From Serendipita indica DSM 11827 (taxonomy: Eukaryota > Basidiomycota > Agaricomycetes > Sebacinales > Serendipitaceae): a stretch of 64,000 nucleotides of DNA. Positions within the stretch are counted from its first letter, which is position 1. Every line of letters begins with the position of its first letter. Below, piece by piece: positions 20,362 through 36,363 of this stretch. The DNA is taken from the NCBI GenBank assembly GCA_910890315.1, contig CAJVGD010000017.1, positions 248,001 through 312,000 on the forward strand, read 5' to 3'. Both the position numbers and the translations under genes were made by a program. Under the pieces are notes generated by a model. It saw only the letters and a program-made list of their open reading frames with translations. It was not told the origin of the DNA and did no database searches.

Positions 20362-23300
20362 ATGAATCTACCAGGTTCTTCGTCTTCTGCAGCAACTCCA
20401 TCACGCAAGAGGGGTCAAGTGTACAACGCAGCCAGCGTCGGTCTCGACTTTCTGGGAAATATATCCGAGGGGTCAGATATACTGTCTCCTCTCAAAGCGG
20501 CTTCAAGAGCAATTAAATCAATTCTAGATGTTATCCAAGTAAGTGGATAAAGCTGACGCCAACTCCGTCTGAGCACGCGGCGACAGGCTATCGATGACAA
20601 CCGAGAAGAATGGGACGAAATAACGCGACGTCTGGATAGATACATGACATCTATGGAGAATCAAATCGATTCGTTCGAAAAGTATCCACCGGAAGACAGG
20701 AAAGTAGACGAAGCATTCAGTCGGCCGCTCATTCACTATGTCGAGTGCGTATAGGTGCCAATCTTCGTCTTCATGTGTTGAAAAATGTAGAGTGCTGGAG
20801 GAGTTTGATAGGGTTGTCACCAGCCATATGCACAAGCGGAGTCGTTGCAGAGTTGGCGTGTTGACGGAGATTCGGAAAGTGAAGGTTGATGCAGGATTAA
20901 TCCGTCACTTCAATCGCGATATCGAGGATCTGCATCGGCAATTCATGGTATGGCCTTCATCCACCATGTTCTCAACCTTACAGGGAAAATAGGAGGCATT
21001 GAGCAGCTTTACCGCATTCCGCATCCAGGCTATCGAAAGAAAAGTGGGAAGGATCCTCACCGACGGTACGTTACTATTTTGTACGAAAATCTCGCTGACT
21101 GCTTCAAGACGACGCGTCTGCTATACTCCAGCTGCCAATGGTAGCATTTGTTGCATCTTCAGTCCACAGTACTTGTCTGCAAGGAACACGCCAGGCTGTT
21201 CTTCAGACAATCTGGAATTGGGCGGAGGACGACATGTCGGATAAGCCCATCTTTTGGCTCTGTGATATAGCAGGCTCTGGAAAATCCACAGTCGCAATGT
21301 CTGCAGCGGAGTCATGGCACACACAAGGCCTGTTAGGAGGCCAGTTCTTCTTCTCTATGGCCAGCAGCGAAGCATCCACTACGGAGAAGTTTTGCTCCAC
21401 CATAGCAAGAGAGCTCACCGACTACATCCCCGAGCTTGCGCCGTATGTGGCAGCAGCCGTTAAGCGAAATCGTGCCATTCTGCGACGCCCACTCCACGAG
21501 CAGTTCCGAGCGCTCATCATCGAACCACTTCGTCACCGGCAGGAACGCGTAATCCTAGTCTTGGATGCCATCGACGAGTGCAAGTTGGGATCACAGAGGA
21601 GGGAACTGCTCGATACCTTGTCCAGGGTTGTTAGGGAAGCCAAGAATCTGAAGATATTCATCACCAGTCGGCCTGATCCGGTTATTGAAGACATTTTGAA
21701 GCCGCTTTCGATCAAAGCAGAGCTAAAGGACCGCCTCCATGATGTCAGTCATCACGACAATATTGACGACATTTCGACATACGTACATCAATCGCTTCGT
21801 GAAGTCCTATCGCATGACAAGCGGCAACGTCTGGTCGAAAAGGCCAAAGGGTTGTTTATCTGGGCAAGCACCTCATGCCGAATGCTCGTCGATCCAGCGA
21901 CCTTCGATACCCCCGAGAGCATATATGGTCGGCTGATTGCTGTGGATCAGAACGGGGCAATGGACGAGGTTTACGACCTGGTCTTCGAGCGTACAGATCC
22001 CAACTCATATTCGACCATGTGTAGTATGCTCGCATTGCTACTCGCAGCATTCGAACCCCTAACTATCAACGATTTCGACGACCTCCTCAAATCGGCTGGA
22101 GTCTGTGGAAGAGCTAGGGCATTGGTAAAGAATCTGGGAAGCGTAGTTACTGAAGATCCGACTACAAATTTGATCCAGTTTCGTCATCCCACTTTCATCG
22201 AGTACCTTCGACGTCGCTCCACCACCCCCGCCGTGGATAATAATACCCAAATGCGCCTTGATATTGTCCATGCACACGGCCAAGCAGCCTCTTGGTGTCT
22301 CCGGAACCTCAAATCACCCAAGGAAGGTCTCAAATTCAATATATGTGAAATCGGGTCGTCCTTCTATCTAAATAGGCATCTCCCAGATCTCGAGGCGAAA
22401 GTGTCGAAATCAATTCCTAGAAAACTTCGATATGCGAGCCTCCATTGGTCATTTCATGTATCCGAAGCGGACGGCGGTTGGCGACGAAGATTGAAAAACG
22501 AACTTCGATACATAGTGACGACTCCATATCCGCTATACTGGATGGAGATCCTGAGCGCCATCGGAGGGGTCGCAAGAGCGATAGGTGGGCTTCGGTCTGT
22601 AGCCTGGTATACAGAGGCGAGTAGTCTCTGATTTGTTGTTTCTGCCTATTCACATACAGGACAGCTTGAAGAGGATACAAAAGGCCGGATTCATGAGATC
22701 CAGCGATTTATGATGACATTCCTGGTGGCTATTCAGGACAGTATACCACACATCTACCTCTCAGCATTACCATTCACACCTAGGATGTCAAATCTACACG
22801 TGGAGGGTCTGCAGGAGTATAAGGATACTATTAGTGTGACCCAGGGTCTTGAGGATATATACTATGGATTACCAGACGCTCTTCGAGGTCACGGCGGTTG
22901 GGTCAGCGCTGTCGGATTCTCACCAGACGGCTCGCAAATTGTCTCTGGCTCATCGGATACGACCATTCGACTGTGGGATGCAGCCACTGGTCAGCCGTTA
23001 GGAGAGCCACTTCGAGGTCATGAACACGAAGTCAGCGCCGTCGGATTCTCACCAGACGGCTCGCAAATTGTCTCTGGCTCATCGGATACGACCATTCGAC
23101 TGTGGGATGCAGCCACTGGTCAGCCGTTAGGAGAGCCACTTCGAGGTCATGAACACGAGGTCACCGCCGTCGGATTCTCACCAGACGGCTCGCAAATTGT
23201 CTCTGGCTCATCGGATACGACCATTCGACTGTGGGATGCAGCCACTGGTCAGCCGTTAGGAGAGCCACTTCGAGGTCATGAAGACGAAGTCAGCGCCGTC

Positions 23301-25311
23301 GGATTCTCACCAGACGGCTCGCAAATTGTCTCTGGCTCATCGGATACGACCATTCGACTGTGGGATGCAGCCACTGGTCAGCCGTTAGGAGAGCCACTTC
23401 GAGGTCATGAACACGAAGTCAGCGCCGTCGGATTCTCACCAGACGGCTCGCAAATTGTCTCTGGCTCATGGGATAGGACCATTCGACTGTGGGATGCAGC
23501 CACTGGTCAGCCGTTAGGAGAGCCACTTCGAGGTCATGAACACGAAGTCACCGCCATCGGATTCTCACCAGACGGCTCGCAAATTGTCTCTGGCTCATCG
23601 GATAGGACCATTCGACTGTGGGATGCAGCCACTGGTCAGCCGTTAGGAGAGCCACTTCGAGGTCATGAAGACTCAGTCACCGCCGTCGGATTCTCACCAG
23701 ACGGCTCGCAAATTGTCTCTGGCTCATGGGATAGGACCATTCGACTGTGGGATGCAGCCACTGGTCAGCCGTTAGGAGAGCCACTTCGAGGTCATGAAGG
23801 CGGAGTCAGCGCCGTCGGATTCTCACCAGACGGCTCGCAAATTGTCTCTGGCTCATGGGATAGGACCATTCGACTGTGGGATGCAGCCACTGGTCAGCCG
23901 TTAGGAGAGCCACTTCGAGGTCATGAAGACTCAGTCAGCGCCGTCGGATTCTCACCAGACGGCTCGCAAATTGTCTCTGGCTCATCGGATACGACCATTC
24001 GACTGTGGGATGCAGCCACTGGTCAGCCGTTAGGAGAGCCACTTCGAGGTCATGAACACGAAGTCAGCGCCGTCGGATTCTCACCAGACGGCTCGCAAAT
24101 TGTCTCTGGCTCATGGGATAGGACCATTCGACTGTGGGATGCAGCCACTGGTCAGCCGTTAGGAGAGCCACTTCGAGGTCATGAACACGAAGTCACCGCC
24201 GTCGGATTCTCACCAGACGGCTCGCAAATTGTCTCTGGCTCATGGGATAGGACCATTCGACTGTGGGATGCAGCCACTGGTCAGCCGTTAGGAGAGCCAC
24301 TTCGAGGTCATGAATACTCAGTCAGCACCGTCGGATTCTCACCAGACGGCTCGCAAATTGTCTCTGGCTCATGGGATAGGACCATTCGACTGTGGGATGC
24401 AGCCACTGGTCAGCCGTTAGAAGAGCCACTTCGAGGTCATGAAGACGAAGTCAGCGCCGTCGGATTCTCACCAGACGGCTCGCAAATTGTCTCTGGCTCA
24501 TCGGATACGACCATTCGACTGTGGGATGCAGCCACTGGTCAGCCGTTAGGAGAGCCACTTCGAGGTCATGAAGGCGAAGTCAGCGCCGTCGGATTCTCAC
24601 CAGACGGCTCGCAAATTGTCTCTGGCTCATACGATAAGACCATTCGACTGTGGGATGCAGCCACTGGTCAGCCGTTAGGAGAGCCACTTCGAGGTCATGA
24701 AGCGCCGGTCTACGCCGTCGGATTCTCGCCAGACGCCACACAAATTGTCTCTGGCTCGTGCGATGCGACCATTAGACCGTGGAATGTAGTCACTGGTCAG
24801 CCGTTAAGAGGGACACCCCGAAGTGACGTTGCCTTGGTCACTGCTGTAGGATTCTCGCCAGATAACTCATCAGTGGTCTCTGGCTTAGACAATAGCACCA
24901 TTCTCTCGTGCAGATTAGCACCTGGTGAGCACAGTGACAGTCCAGTCTTTTATCCGTACAATTGGACACTTATTAACTTTATACGATGTAATTGCAGACC
25001 GCCATGATAATCAAGTTCCAGACCCAGTCCATTCAAATCTCATTACATTGGCTGACGGAGTAATCCCAGGGTCCCGTTTATCAATGTTCATACCTGGGTT
25101 CACCAGATGCGTTCTGATGCACGACGGGTGGGTAAACTCGGACGGTCGATATCTCTTTTGGGTGCCGCCCGATAATCGAAATGGGCTTTTATACCCACGT
25201 GCTCGTCTGACAATACCAACTGATTCCCATTTGCGTATGACCAGACTTGACTTTGCCAAGTTCCGTTGTGGACTATCTTGGACCGAAATTCGATCAGATC
25301 TTGAGCAATGA
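20362..25311 (+). CDS. NACHT-WD40 NOD-like receptor
   Basis: This is a STAND-class receptor. The N-terminal region (20362-21130, several small exons) is helical and amphipathic (SRAIKSILDVIQAIDDNREE, LDRYMTSMENQIDSF); it may be a HeLo/MLKL-like four-helix bundle, which is inference. The NACHT domain lies at about 21250-22000 with Walker A CDIAGSGKST (21262-21291), Walker B VILVLDAIDE (21550-21579) and the sensor-like FITSRPDP. A winged-helix/spacer region follows up to 22612, then an intron leads to PHIYLSALPFTP and the WD40 array. After the array an intron (GTGAGC near 24924 to TTGCAG near 25000) leads to a conserved C-terminal exon (IPGFTRCVLMHDGW, LFWVPPDNRNG, LDFAKFRCGLSW) ending at 25311. 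All Walker residues are present and the frame is open, so it looks functional. Such proteins act as ligand-triggered oligomerising sensors in fungal non-self recognition. Confidence 0.9.
22881..24944 (+). repeat. WD40 array: 15 near-identical 129-bp repeats plus one decayed
   Basis: Repeats start at 22881 and recur every 129 bp (22881, 23010, 23139 and so on to 24687); a sixteenth, degenerate unit begins at 24816. Each codes for 43 residues of the form LRGH..V.AVGFSPDGSQ then IVSGS.D.TIRLWDAATGQP. Repeats 1-14 are almost identical in DNA. Repeat 15 diverges and repeat 16 has lost the Trp-Asp pair. Differences among the first 14 fall mainly at the two or three codons after GHE, the Ser/Thr before AVGF, and the two residues flanking the Asp of S.D.T. 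Such a string should fold into two seven-bladed propellers. Confidence 0.95.
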
Positions 25312-28207: not shown

Positions 28208-28379
28208 TGTTGATGATAAATGAAGATATAGTTTATAATCGAGTGATGCAATGGCCGGAATAACCGGCGCAAAGATGAGATCCAAGGCGCGTCGAGGTCA
28301 TCGAGCCATTCAGAATCGTGCAACTTGGACTCCCCCGCTCTCTGCCGCGGATCCTTGTACTCTCTAAAATACGCCAAAA

Positions 28380-29905
28380 ATGACTGGCGTAGAGGTTTCT
28401 AAACGGTCAAATGGCCACGCTCACGTCTTCAATCCACGCACGACGTCGTATGAGTTTCTGGGACCGCCGGGGACATTTCTCATCTCGACGCTCGTCCCCT
28501 TTTTCACCTATGTCTTTGCCTATGGGTGCTCAGAGTCTGCGGGAGGCTGTCCTCGCTCCTTCTACGAGCTCCCAACAAGCTTTATGCAAACCGTCACAGA
28601 CGTAGATTGGTGGAAGGCCCAATGGGATCCGCATGGATTCGCTGCTTACTTTGCGTGGTACGCGTTTACGGTCGTCGCGTGGGCTGTTCTCCCTGGTGAA
28701 TGGGTCGAGGGACTGCCGCTACGTACCGGACAAAAGCTCAAGTACAAGATTAACGGTGCGTTCTCGCGCGTATTCAAAGAGAGCTTATGTTTATCTTCCT
28801 GTCTAAGCATTCGCAACGCTCCTTCTCTCCTTGGGCCTTGCCGGAGGGCTTATTTGGACCCAAGGCCCTGCCTCATTCACGTACATCTACAACCACTGGA
28901 TTGGAATCGTAACCGGTGCCTTTGTCAACTCTATTGTGCAAGCATTCTATTGCTATGCCTCTTCATTCGCACAGGGTGCCCTGCTCTCTGCAAACGGAAA
29001 CAGCGGAAACTATATCTACGATGTGAGTCTACGTAAAGCTATCTGTTAAGTAGTTGCTAAACTCGCTCCAGTGGTTCATGGGCCGCGAACTCAACCCTCG
29101 TATCGGGTCGTTTGACATCAAGTCGTTCAACGAGCTTCGACCGGGCCTTATCCTATGGTTCCTCATCGACATTAGCATGGCCTGCGAGCAAGCCGTACGA
29201 CGAGGTGGTCATATCACTGACTCTATGTGGCTCGTCATCTGCTTCCAGGGTCTCTATGTCATTGACGCACTCTACAATGAGACGGCGATCCTCTCGACTA
29301 TGGATATCATCTCGGATGGCTTTGGCTTTATGCTTTCCGTCGGAGATTTGCTTTGGGTGCCGTTCACCTACTGCCTCCAAGCTCGCTATCTTGCATGGCA
29401 TCCAGTTGAGCTCGGCCCGGTTTGGACTGCCACCATTTTCGTCCTCCATGGTCTCGGATACTACATCTTCCGTTCGGCCAATAGCGAGAAGAATGACTTT
29501 AGGAATGGCAAGAACCCAAAGAACCGAACGTTTATGCAGACGAAGCGAGGCACCAAGTTGTTGACGAGTGGGTGGTGGGGAATGTCGCGACATCCAAACT
29601 ACTTGTGAGTGTTTCTCCTACTGCGCTGTCTTCTTTTGACTTAGCTGGTTCCAGTGGCGATCTCATCATGGCGCTGGCTTGGTGCTTGCCCACGGGTTTC
29701 GAAACACCAGTGACCTATTTTTACTTTATCTACTTTACCATCCTATTGGTTCATCGTCAACGACGAGACGACGAGGCTTGCCACGAAAAGTACGCCAGCT
29801 CAGTCTTGCACAGTTTATTTACTGATATTCATTGCTAGATATGGAGATGATTGGAAGGAGTATCAAAAGCTCGTCCCCTGGCGTATCGTGCCAGGATTCT
29901 ACTGA
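28380..29905 (+). CDS. ERG24: Delta(14)-sterol reductase, copy A
   Basis: This integral ER enzyme reduces the C14-C15 double bond formed by CYP51 during ergosterol synthesis, using NADPH. Family motifs are [14 protein letters not shown] at the N-terminus, [53 protein letters not shown] and [20 protein letters not shown] (end of exon 29054-29605 into the next). The C-terminus is [20 protein letters not shown]. Many hydrophobic helices are evident. Introns fall after KING, after NYIYD, after HPNYL and before YGDDW. Copy B on the other strand shares these positions. All expected blocks are present and open. The start at 28380 is the first Met of the conserved N-terminal exon. Confidence 0.9.
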
Positions 29906-34566: not shown

Positions 34567-36072
34567 CTAGTATACTCCCGGAACAATTCGCCACGGAACA
34601 AGTTTCTTGTACTCGTTCCAGTCGTCGCCATATCTGCAGAGCATTAGGATGGAATAGTATGGTTTGTTCTCACTTACTTGAGATGGCACGCCTCGTCGTC
34701 ACGGCGTTGACGGTGAACCAGGAGAAGAGTAAACCAGATGAAGTAAAAGTAGGTCACAGGCGTCCCGAACCCGGTAGGTAGGCACCAAGAGAGTGCCAAT
34801 ATGAGATCTCCACTAAAACATATCAGCATTTGGGAGTACACGATGAAGGGTCTCACAAGTAATTTGGATGCCTAGACATACCCCACCAGCCGCTGGTCAG
34901 CAGCTTGGTTCCTCGCTTCGTCTGCATAAACGTGCGATTCTTAGGATTCTTTCCATTCCTAAACTGATTTTTCTCGCTGTTGGACGAGCGGAAGATGTAG
35001 TAGCCCAGCCCATGCAGCGCGAAGATGACTGTAGTCCAGAGGGGTCCTAGTTCGACTGGGTGCCAGGCGAGGTACCGAGCTTGAAGGCTGTAGATGAAGG
35101 GGACCCACATAAGGTCACCGAATGAAAGCATAAAACCAAAGCCGTCCGATATAATATCCATGGTCGAAAAGAGTGCCGTCTCGTGGTAGAGTGCGTCAAC
35201 AACGTAGAAACCTTCGAACAGGATGACGAGCCACATCGAGTCGGTAATACGACCACCCCGTCGTACGGCTTGCTTGCATGCCATGCTAACGTTGATGAGC
35301 AACCAGAACATCATCCCTGGTCGAAGCTCGTTGAACGACTTGAGGTCCAGCCATCCAATACGTGGGTTAAGCTCGCGTCCAATGAACCACTATACGCATT
35401 CAGCAATGGGCGTATGCGGAGAAGTCAAGCACGTACATCGTAGTTGTGGACCCCGGTATTCCCACCGAGAGCAAGCAATGCACCAGGCCTGAAGGAGACC
35501 AGGTAGCAATAGGTCGCCTGGGTAAGCGACATACATAGTGCTCCGGTGAGAATACCGATCCAATGATCATAAATATATGTGAAGGAGCCAGGGCCTGCAT
35601 CCAGATGAGTCCACCGACCGCGCCAAGGGTGAGAAAAAGGGTTGATAATGCTAAAGATGTCATTAAAATCAACACAATCACTCCCTCTGGACACACCGTT
35701 TATCTTGTACTGGAGCCTTTCCCCAGTGCGAAGCGGTAAACCCTCAACCCATTCCCCAGGGAGGATTGCCCAGGCTATTACCACAAATGCATACCAAGCA
35801 AAGTAAGCGACAAACCCTTGTGGATCCCACTGCGCCTTCCACCATTCAGGATCTGCCACTGCATGGGCAAAGTCCGAGGGGAGTTGGAGCCACGAACCAG
35901 GGCACCCTCCAGCCTTCTCTGAGCATCCATAGGATAGCCCAAACGTCAGGAGTGGTGCGACTATCGAGACGACGAGTGCTCCTGGCGGACCAAAGAATTC
36001 GTACGAGGTGGTTCGTGGGTTGAGAGCGCTGGCTGGGTCCTTGGTGCTTTTATGTGCAGATTTTCTTATCAT
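34567..36072 (-). CDS. ERG24: Delta(14)-sterol reductase, copy B
   Basis: This is a paralogue of copy A with the same exon plan. The start at 36072 (MIRKSAHKSTKDPASALNPR) leads to [84 protein letters not shown], and a final exon [20 protein letters not shown] with TAG at 34567-34569. Introns occur at the same places as in copy A. Differences cluster in membrane segments (FGLSYGCSEKAGGCPGSW versus [16 protein letters not shown]) and the N-terminus, while the C-terminal catalytic third is nearly unchanged. No break is seen in the reading frame. Having two copies could alter dosage or sensitivity to morpholine-type inhibitors, which is inference. Confidence 0.88.
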
Positions 36073-36363
36073 CTTGTGGTATGAGGATGATTTGAGAAGA
36101 AGAGGGCGGTTAGATATCGAGGCTAAATAGTGCGAGGTCAAATAGTACGAGGTCGAAAGTGGCTCGATAGTAGATGGCCAAGCTCGGCGCTCATTCGACA
36201 TTCACACGAACGTCTCGGAAGTGTATGAGAAATAAAGTCTCGATCCATCGTACAGCCGCGTCGCCACAGCTACGCAGCGGCGGTACTATTATACACGAGT
36301 ATATTCGTCGCATAAACAATTCGTGCTCCAAAGCTCTTCAGAATCGTAAGATGCGATAATCCC

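Follow-up and report, generated by a model that had tools for sequence, protein, structure and literature searches.

How can a run of coding DNA stay nearly uniform, silent positions included, and keep a handful of its codons highly variable? The question is raised by a NACHT-WD40 receptor gene of the basidiomycete Serendipita (Piriformospora) indica DSM 11827, which lies in a 64,000-nucleotide stretch of contig CAJVGD010000017.1 (assembly GCA_910890315.1, positions 248,001 to 312,000; hereafter the window, within which coordinates are given). We read its WD40 array as the sensor of an NWD-type fungal NOD-like receptor (NLR), in which exchange between units homogenises the repeat frame and diversifying selection keeps the variants at a few hot codons, and give this reading a probability of a little over 0.8.

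The array consists of sixteen in-frame 129-bp (43-residue) WD40 units (Table 1; frame LRGH...GEP from 22881) without a frame break, and PF00400 matches 15 stretches of it. An initial annotation of the locus had described fourteen consecutive near-identical repeats. Their internal conservation (96.0%) indeed exceeds the 85% threshold for high internal conservation and rises to 96.7% mean pairwise identity for units 2–14, and Tandem Repeats Finder gives the same picture, with 14.8 copies of period 129 at 96% matches and without indels. Measured against unit 4, units 1–14 differ in order at 9, 1, 3, 0, 3, 4, 5, 4, 2, 3, 4, 7, 0, and 4 bases. Units 15 and 16 have escaped homogenisation (Table 1), as had also been proposed; that list was incomplete, unit 1 having partly escaped as well.

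The published numbering of Podospora units fits the window units directly (V8, D26). As test codons we fixed beforehand the four (7, 9, 25, and 27) for which the available text of Paoletti et al. 2007 (PMC1805685) reports strong positive selection in the NWD/HNWD genes of Podospora, codons 8 and 26 being conserved there. Within units 1–14, codons 4, 5, 6, 7, 9, 10, 11, 25, 27, and 41 vary: variants recur at codons 6, 7, 9, 25, and 27 (the hot codons), codon 10 varies in two units and the others in one. Codon 6 behaves like the four test codons, and the five give 12 distinct residue combinations in these fourteen units. Replacement (pN) and silent (pS) diversity were obtained by pairwise Nei-Gojobori counting, not by a recombination-aware likelihood test. 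For units 1–14, pN is 0.281 at the test codons; over all codons pN is 0.0454 and pS 0.0249, and at the other 39 codons they are 0.0188 and 0.0159. For units 2–14, pN is 0.273 at the test codons, with zero silent differences in the other 39 codons; over all codons pN is 0.0420 and pS 0.0068. Silent differences in units 2–14 are confined to codons 6, 7, 9, 25, and 27. The gaa/gag difference noticed earlier in repeat 3 is present and is codon 7, and unit 1 differs silently at codons 4 and 10, and at codon 6 when compared with the other units that have Gly there. Counted as derived states in units 1–14, eight replacement states at the test codons stand against five silent ones anywhere in the unit (conditional binomial p = 0.0026), and replacement states at the four codons versus the rest give an odds ratio of 77 (p = 1e-6); outside the four codons there are eight replacement and five silent states (p = 0.54). 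The codon-by-codon alignment with site-wise counts that had been suggested thus finds excess replacement at codons 7, 9, 25, and 27, and the earlier statement that changes are mainly amino-acid altering is correct there. Equal silent and replacement diversity across the whole repeat, which had been named as contrary evidence, is approached once all codons are averaged and unit 1 is counted (0.025 vs 0.045), yet the signal is site-specific.

The same codons stand out across the genome. A search gave at least 48 matches, a lower bound since 40 of 181 candidates were scored, and the family analysed here comprises the window array and 39 further loci (L-numbered), 40 arrays in all; 571 units were found, of which the 535 above the score cut-off were counted and 36 divergent ones dropped. 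Array spans range from 10 up to 26 units, 22/40 having 14 or 15, although loci taken in shorter spans may be cut; the L011 and L031 arrays are unusually long, at 21 and 26 units. At the test codons pN exceeds pS in 40/40 arrays (ratios 1.3–15.8, one array with a pS of zero). The top five codons by variability are exactly the hot codons in 20/40 arrays and include four of them in 17 and three in 3; codons 5 and 34 are weakly variable. Recurrent variants occupy 50/65/50% of hot-codon positions 1/2/3 vs 3/1/6% elsewhere, and the 535 units hold 394 distinct five-residue combinations. Silent mismatch in the frame averages 0.068 within arrays vs 0.279 between them. NPHP3_N matches in the genome number at least 150, all of the 150 candidates scored (of 258) lying above the cut-off.

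Could the five codons simply be free surface positions, the rest being held by purifying selection and homogenisation, with no diversifying selection at all? The hot positions are WD40 loop positions according to Podospora modelling, and outside them pN in the window array is near or below pS, both as such relaxed constraint would have it. Free positions should nevertheless equal silent diversity, yet pN exceeds pS in every one of the 40 arrays, the excess being small in two (1.3-fold in L037, 1.4-fold in L043), and in five pairs of arrays that can be compared unit by unit the replacement excess is 3.3- to 8.3-fold. Relaxed constraint is, on this evidence, very unlikely.

These pairs, taken from the six highest-ranked of 780, are in register: L023/L024, L020/L028, L018/L028, L013/L019, and L034/L045, with pN/pS at the four codons of 3.3, 8.3, 5.3, 3.5, and 4.6 and Fisher p values of 7e-3, 2e-13, 6e-12, 2e-10, and 2e-17, respectively. 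The first four match at 94–98% over 5–8 kb; the L034/L045 comparison covered the arrays. The sixth candidate, L024/L036, had 115 silent differences at other codons and was left out for its divergence. L023 and L024 lie on different contigs and share 98.2% identity across 6.2 kb; their arrays are in register, and a residue is changed at 11/65 hot codons vs 10/494 other codons. Silent differences, pooled over the five pairs with L028 in two, number 45/408 adjacent to hot codons, 36/2187 far from them, and 4/201 at the hot codons.

Variation moves as two cassettes, codons ~5–9 and ~24–28, which assort almost independently within units. Residues 6, 7, and 9 are linked within units (z 9.3–13.4), as are 25 and 27 (z 6.8), whereas linkage across the two groups is weak (z 0.7–2.8); hot residues of neighbouring units show no positive linkage (z -2.0 to 0.5). 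Among the 22 codons at which linkage of silent variants to the blocks was tested, silent states follow the right block at codons 24 (z 9.5), 28 (z 3.6), and 26 (z 2.3), and the left block at codons 8 (z 6.3) and 5 (z 2.0). Codon 10 shows no linkage (z 0.9), codon 4 is about equally tied to both blocks (z 2.1 and 1.9), and an association of codon 20 with the left block (z 2.7) is unexplained. For 87/122 changed cassettes (five pairs plus L009/L010), both states are present elsewhere in the paired arrays; for comparison, a two-array pool of this kind contains 5–30% of the cassettes of the other 38 arrays. Since half-unit cassettes move, crossovers must occur inside units or short tracts must be converted. 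The unequal crossover first invoked for this array holds as exchange between units, but crossover of whole units alone is insufficient.

The variation might instead come from local hypermutation or complex mutation focused on the two loop segments, with selection secondary. Silent differences are raised beside hot codons in the pooled pairs; per silent site they reach 0.104 at distance 1 vs 0.02–0.07 further out (inner units), with a distance trend of p = 0.009 in all units and p = 0.09 in inner units. Moreover, of the 27 irregular spacings in other arrays, 12 change length at codon 25 or 6/7, 10 at the unit boundary, 3 elsewhere, and 2 not at all. The length changes, however, may be assembly errors: several at hot codons fall within or next to short runs of G (judged by eye), and given the probable assembly method consensus error is as likely a cause as targeted mutation. 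The silent differences of the hot codons themselves, counted at unchanged-residue codons only, are not raised (p = 0.58 vs far codons), neighbouring silent states (codons 24, 8, 28, and 26) go with the nearer block and show no tie to the farther one, and the 87 cassettes noted above pre-exist elsewhere in the paired arrays. Hypermutation as the main source is quite improbable in our view, and we read the silent excess beside hot codons as old variants that hitchhike with selected cassettes and thereby escape homogenisation.

Exchange also reaches beyond the gene and has involved the array region of at least the two nearest paralogs. These relatives, L009 and L010, lie on the same contig, and their identity to the window gene is 80–83% in exons 1–4, 90–91% in exon 5, 97% in the stretch before the array, ~95% in the array, and ~71% in the alignable part of the last exon; the upstream flank is barely alike. 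Silent mismatch falls from 0.25–0.28 in exons 1–4 to 0.00–0.014 just before the array and is 0.027–0.031 in the array frame. The order of hot codons is little conserved at best register, with 34/75 matches between window and L009 (P 0.014), 31/65 between window and L010 (P 0.20), and 34/65 between L009 and L010 (P 0.15). As further observations, the window gene looks mosaic relative to L009 and L010, and these two are 91–100% alike through the gene and near 3' flank, except for ~80% around exons 3–5.

The receptor itself was modelled by hand (Table 1). All introns (6/6) have GT..AG borders and the predicted coding sequence is a single open reading frame, its least certain part being the exon 6/7 join inside unit 16. 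The initial annotation had the extent of the array right (22881–24944) and stopped there; the gene continues past 24944 into a last exon, whose conserved tail is matched in 47/120 listed homologs (best 120 of 138, including two from Serendipita vermifera and one from Serendipita sp. 399, the rest, wherever a complete name was given, from S. indica DSM 11827) and has no Pfam family. The ATPase is well supported by profile scores for NPHP3_N (4e-25) and NACHT (1e-12), both above cut-off, by P-loop residues invariant across 17 aligned homologs, and by a homolog structure model whose ATPase region resembles structures of signal transduction ATPases with numerous domains (STAND) and NLRs.

The N-terminal helical domain is probably the effector or output domain. 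It is matched in 96 of the same 120 homologs, and a structure model of one homolog (P0049) shows five long N-terminal helices (predicted local distance difference test, pLDDT, ~32–68 over the block). Against PDB sequences no convincing match was found (best E 0.03). PF17111 was matched weakly by 5/17 homologs (best E 0.007), raising the question of a BaMLKL/HeLo-like four-helix bundle with an extra N-terminal helix. In the structure search with the homolog model, the N-terminal part gave only common helical arrangements and the matches listed were mainly to the ATPase region; none of those listed was an MLKL or HeLo-type chain, in a search that barely covered residues 1–190 and so excludes nothing. 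A HET domain had no match up to E 1 in the N-terminal 206 residues, which makes this an NWD-type receptor and not a true HNWD. The earlier likening to HNWD receptors stands for the evolutionary pattern (four preset codons, 40/40 arrays, five pairs, and exchange with paralogs).

Table 1. Parts of the receptor gene, in window coordinates.
Feature	Position	Strand	Basis and remarks
NACHT-WD40 receptor gene	20362-25311	+	Manual model, seven exons (20362-20538, 20587-20744, 20791-20947, 20993-21065, 21109-22620, 22660-24924, 24998-25311), 1551 aa
Exons 1-4, N-terminal helical domain, ~190 residues	20362-21065	+	Homolog matches, homolog structure model
Exon 5, NACHT/NPHP3_N STAND ATPase	21109-22620	+	P-loop AGSGKST, Walker B ILVLDAIDE
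WD40 units 1-14, 129 bp each	22881-24686	+	96.0% mean pairwise nucleotide identity
WD40 unit 15	24687-24815	+	23/129 bases differ from reference unit 4
WD40 unit 16, degenerate	24816-24944	+	54/129 bases differ from unit 4; modelled exon 6 ends inside at 24924
Last exon, conserved C-terminal tail FWVPPDNRNGL...	24998-25311	+	Homolog matches; beyond the end given in the initial annotation

Several observations weigh against diversifying selection on a homogenised sensor. The unit-wide pN/pS is only 1.8 in units 1–14 (unit 1 included), and replacement and silent diversity do not differ outside codons 7, 9, 25, and 27. Most changes between paired arrays are relocations, so that pN in those pairs counts exchange events more than new mutations, and silent enrichment beside hot codons is also what a local mutation hotspot would give. 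Homogenisation is not gene-specific everywhere, since 109/780 array pairs are no more diverged than their more diverse member is internally. Pfam gave no family over cut-off for the N-terminal domain, which stays unclassified; a structure model of the WD40 array folded without an alignment was unusable (mean pLDDT 48.9, predicted template modelling score 0.32); and a literature search on vegetative incompatibility in the Sebacinales listed three papers, none with a title on this group. The remaining two points concern sequence quality. The available text of PMC8385953 describes an S. indica resequencing (24.7 Mb, 57 contigs, 324 Mb of MinION reads, Canu, eight Pilon rounds), and this assembly, at ~13x Nanopore coverage, is the likely source of the sequence studied, so single codons may be wrong; in addition, 20/40 arrays depart from the 129-bp spacing at least once, some with stops between.

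Polishing with Pilon might then have homogenised the array and scattered the variants. Random error, however, would not recur across units or hit codons defined in the literature at the frequencies given above, the window array has its frame intact, and proteins of the 2011 assembly rank codons 25, 27, 6, 35, 9, and 7 as the most variable (116 units from 14 proteins with at least four units, of 38 picked by name). We regard an assembly effect as extremely improbable. The other spacings, found in L010, L011, L013, L014, L016, L017, L019, L020, L021, L027, L031, L032, L035, L036, L039, L041, L043, L045, L046, and L047, are either consensus error or true slippage at hypervariable codons, and if slippage is true, several of these 20 genes would be inactive. 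Sought in the 2011 assembly, the window gene had no counterpart above 68% identity among the best 120 of 138 homologs. Twelve proteins among the listed homologs share runs 7 to 16 long of hot-codon strings with an array; they appear to come from the assembly studied here and are not an independent check.

For the array as a sensor under diversifying selection, the data show directly that exchange between units keeps the 129-bp frame near-identical at silent sites too, with replacement variation retained at codons 6, 7, 9, 25, and 27. Judging from WD40 topology and Podospora modelling, the hot residues would lie on one face of the propeller or propellers and bind a ligand; with the WD40 model too poor to use, the choice of face rests on the Podospora modelling. 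Varied ligands may maintain the variants through diversifying selection, and binding could lead to oligomerisation by the NACHT ATPase, activation of the N-terminal helical domain, and a cell-death or defence output. The ligand might be conspecific, as in incompatibility, or come from another organism. By analogy the receptor would work like an HNWD sensor, with a putative output and ligand. A bolder and rather doubtful extension is that the at least 40 receptor genes form a standing combinatorial repertoire, anticipatory and diversified in the germline, in which the unit of exchange is the loop cassette (codons ~5–9 and ~24–28) and not the WD40 repeat, moved by short-tract conversion or focused mutation, and which is directed against other organisms of the soil or root more than at self-incompatibility. 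The locus bears on whether the fast-evolving WD40 sensors of fungal NLRs act in recognition within the species or in immunity more widely. Binding and turnover can be tested with the defined residues and with near-duplicate genes (L023/L024, 98% identity), the L023/L024 pair being a natural experiment for array turnover.

Of the other 24 stop-to-stop frames of at least 200 aa in the window, 20 were scanned for families: 12 belong to ordinary cellular families (among them tubulin, ORC2, She9/Mdm33, flavodoxin/FAD-binding reductase, G-patch, helicase, and RPAP3), 8 had no family match, and none of the 20 matched NACHT or WD40. Two ERG4/ERG24 sterol reductase-like frames, 28368–29036 (+) and 35425–36201 (-), lie ~6 kb apart.

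The kind of receptor has been known since 2007 and the NLR expansion of S. indica since 2011 and 2014. The window gene is a member of that repertoire, for which 99 NACHT-WD open reading frames with a proposed non-self role (PMC3192844) and 274 NLRs, the largest number in that survey (PMC4986451), have been reported. The available passages of these papers contain no site-wise selection, cassette structure, or in-register comparison of paralogs, and our search, with subscription journals and preprints outside it, listed no title on site-wise analysis of S. indica WD40 arrays. As far as these literature searches show, three results are new: the pattern demonstrated site by site in this basidiomycete, the test on paralogs in register, and the linkage of codons into cassettes. 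An S. indica NACHT/WD40 gene, PIIN_07414, appears with a table value of 7.64 in a section on symbiosis onset with Brachypodium (PMC8385953, available text). High internal conservation of WD, ANK, and TPR repeats in fungal NLRs of ascomycetes and basidiomycetes, with positive selection at presumed binding sites, is reported in the passages available from PMC4986451; the site tests described there concern Podospora ANK/TPR loci and two Chaetomium and Penicillium ANK/TPR proteins, whereas ours concern basidiomycete WD40 arrays. The best PDB sequence match to the array (6e-136) is 2ymu, a WD-40 repeat protein with a chain of 577 residues of WD40 repeats, the aligned part of which likewise consists of near-identical units.

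The closest comparison is with the NWD/HNWD genes of Podospora anserina (het-d, het-e, and het-r), which share with the S. indica gene a NACHT domain and near-identical WD40 units, the same selected codons 7, 9, 25, and 27, and the same conserved codons 8 and 26 between them. In the available texts on Podospora (PMC1805685, PMC2873952), units likewise cluster by gene and codon pairs shuffle into new units. With an offset of 5, which is our own, the positions 10, 11, 12, 14, 30, 32, and 39 used in 2025 (PMC12222747, available text) correspond to 5, 6, 7, 9, 25, 27, and 34 here; five of the seven match, and 5 and 34 are weakly variable. The S. indica gene differs in lacking a detected HET domain, in its different N-terminal helical domain, in belonging to a basidiomycete, in having 14 near-identical units against usually 11 in functional Podospora alleles (PMC12222747, same text), and in a codon 6 about as variable as the four selected codons; unlike the Podospora incompatibility genes, it is known here from sequence alone. 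A root endophyte basidiomycete with at least 40 arrays that vary at the Podospora incompatibility codons represents the same mechanism at large scale and in another phylum.

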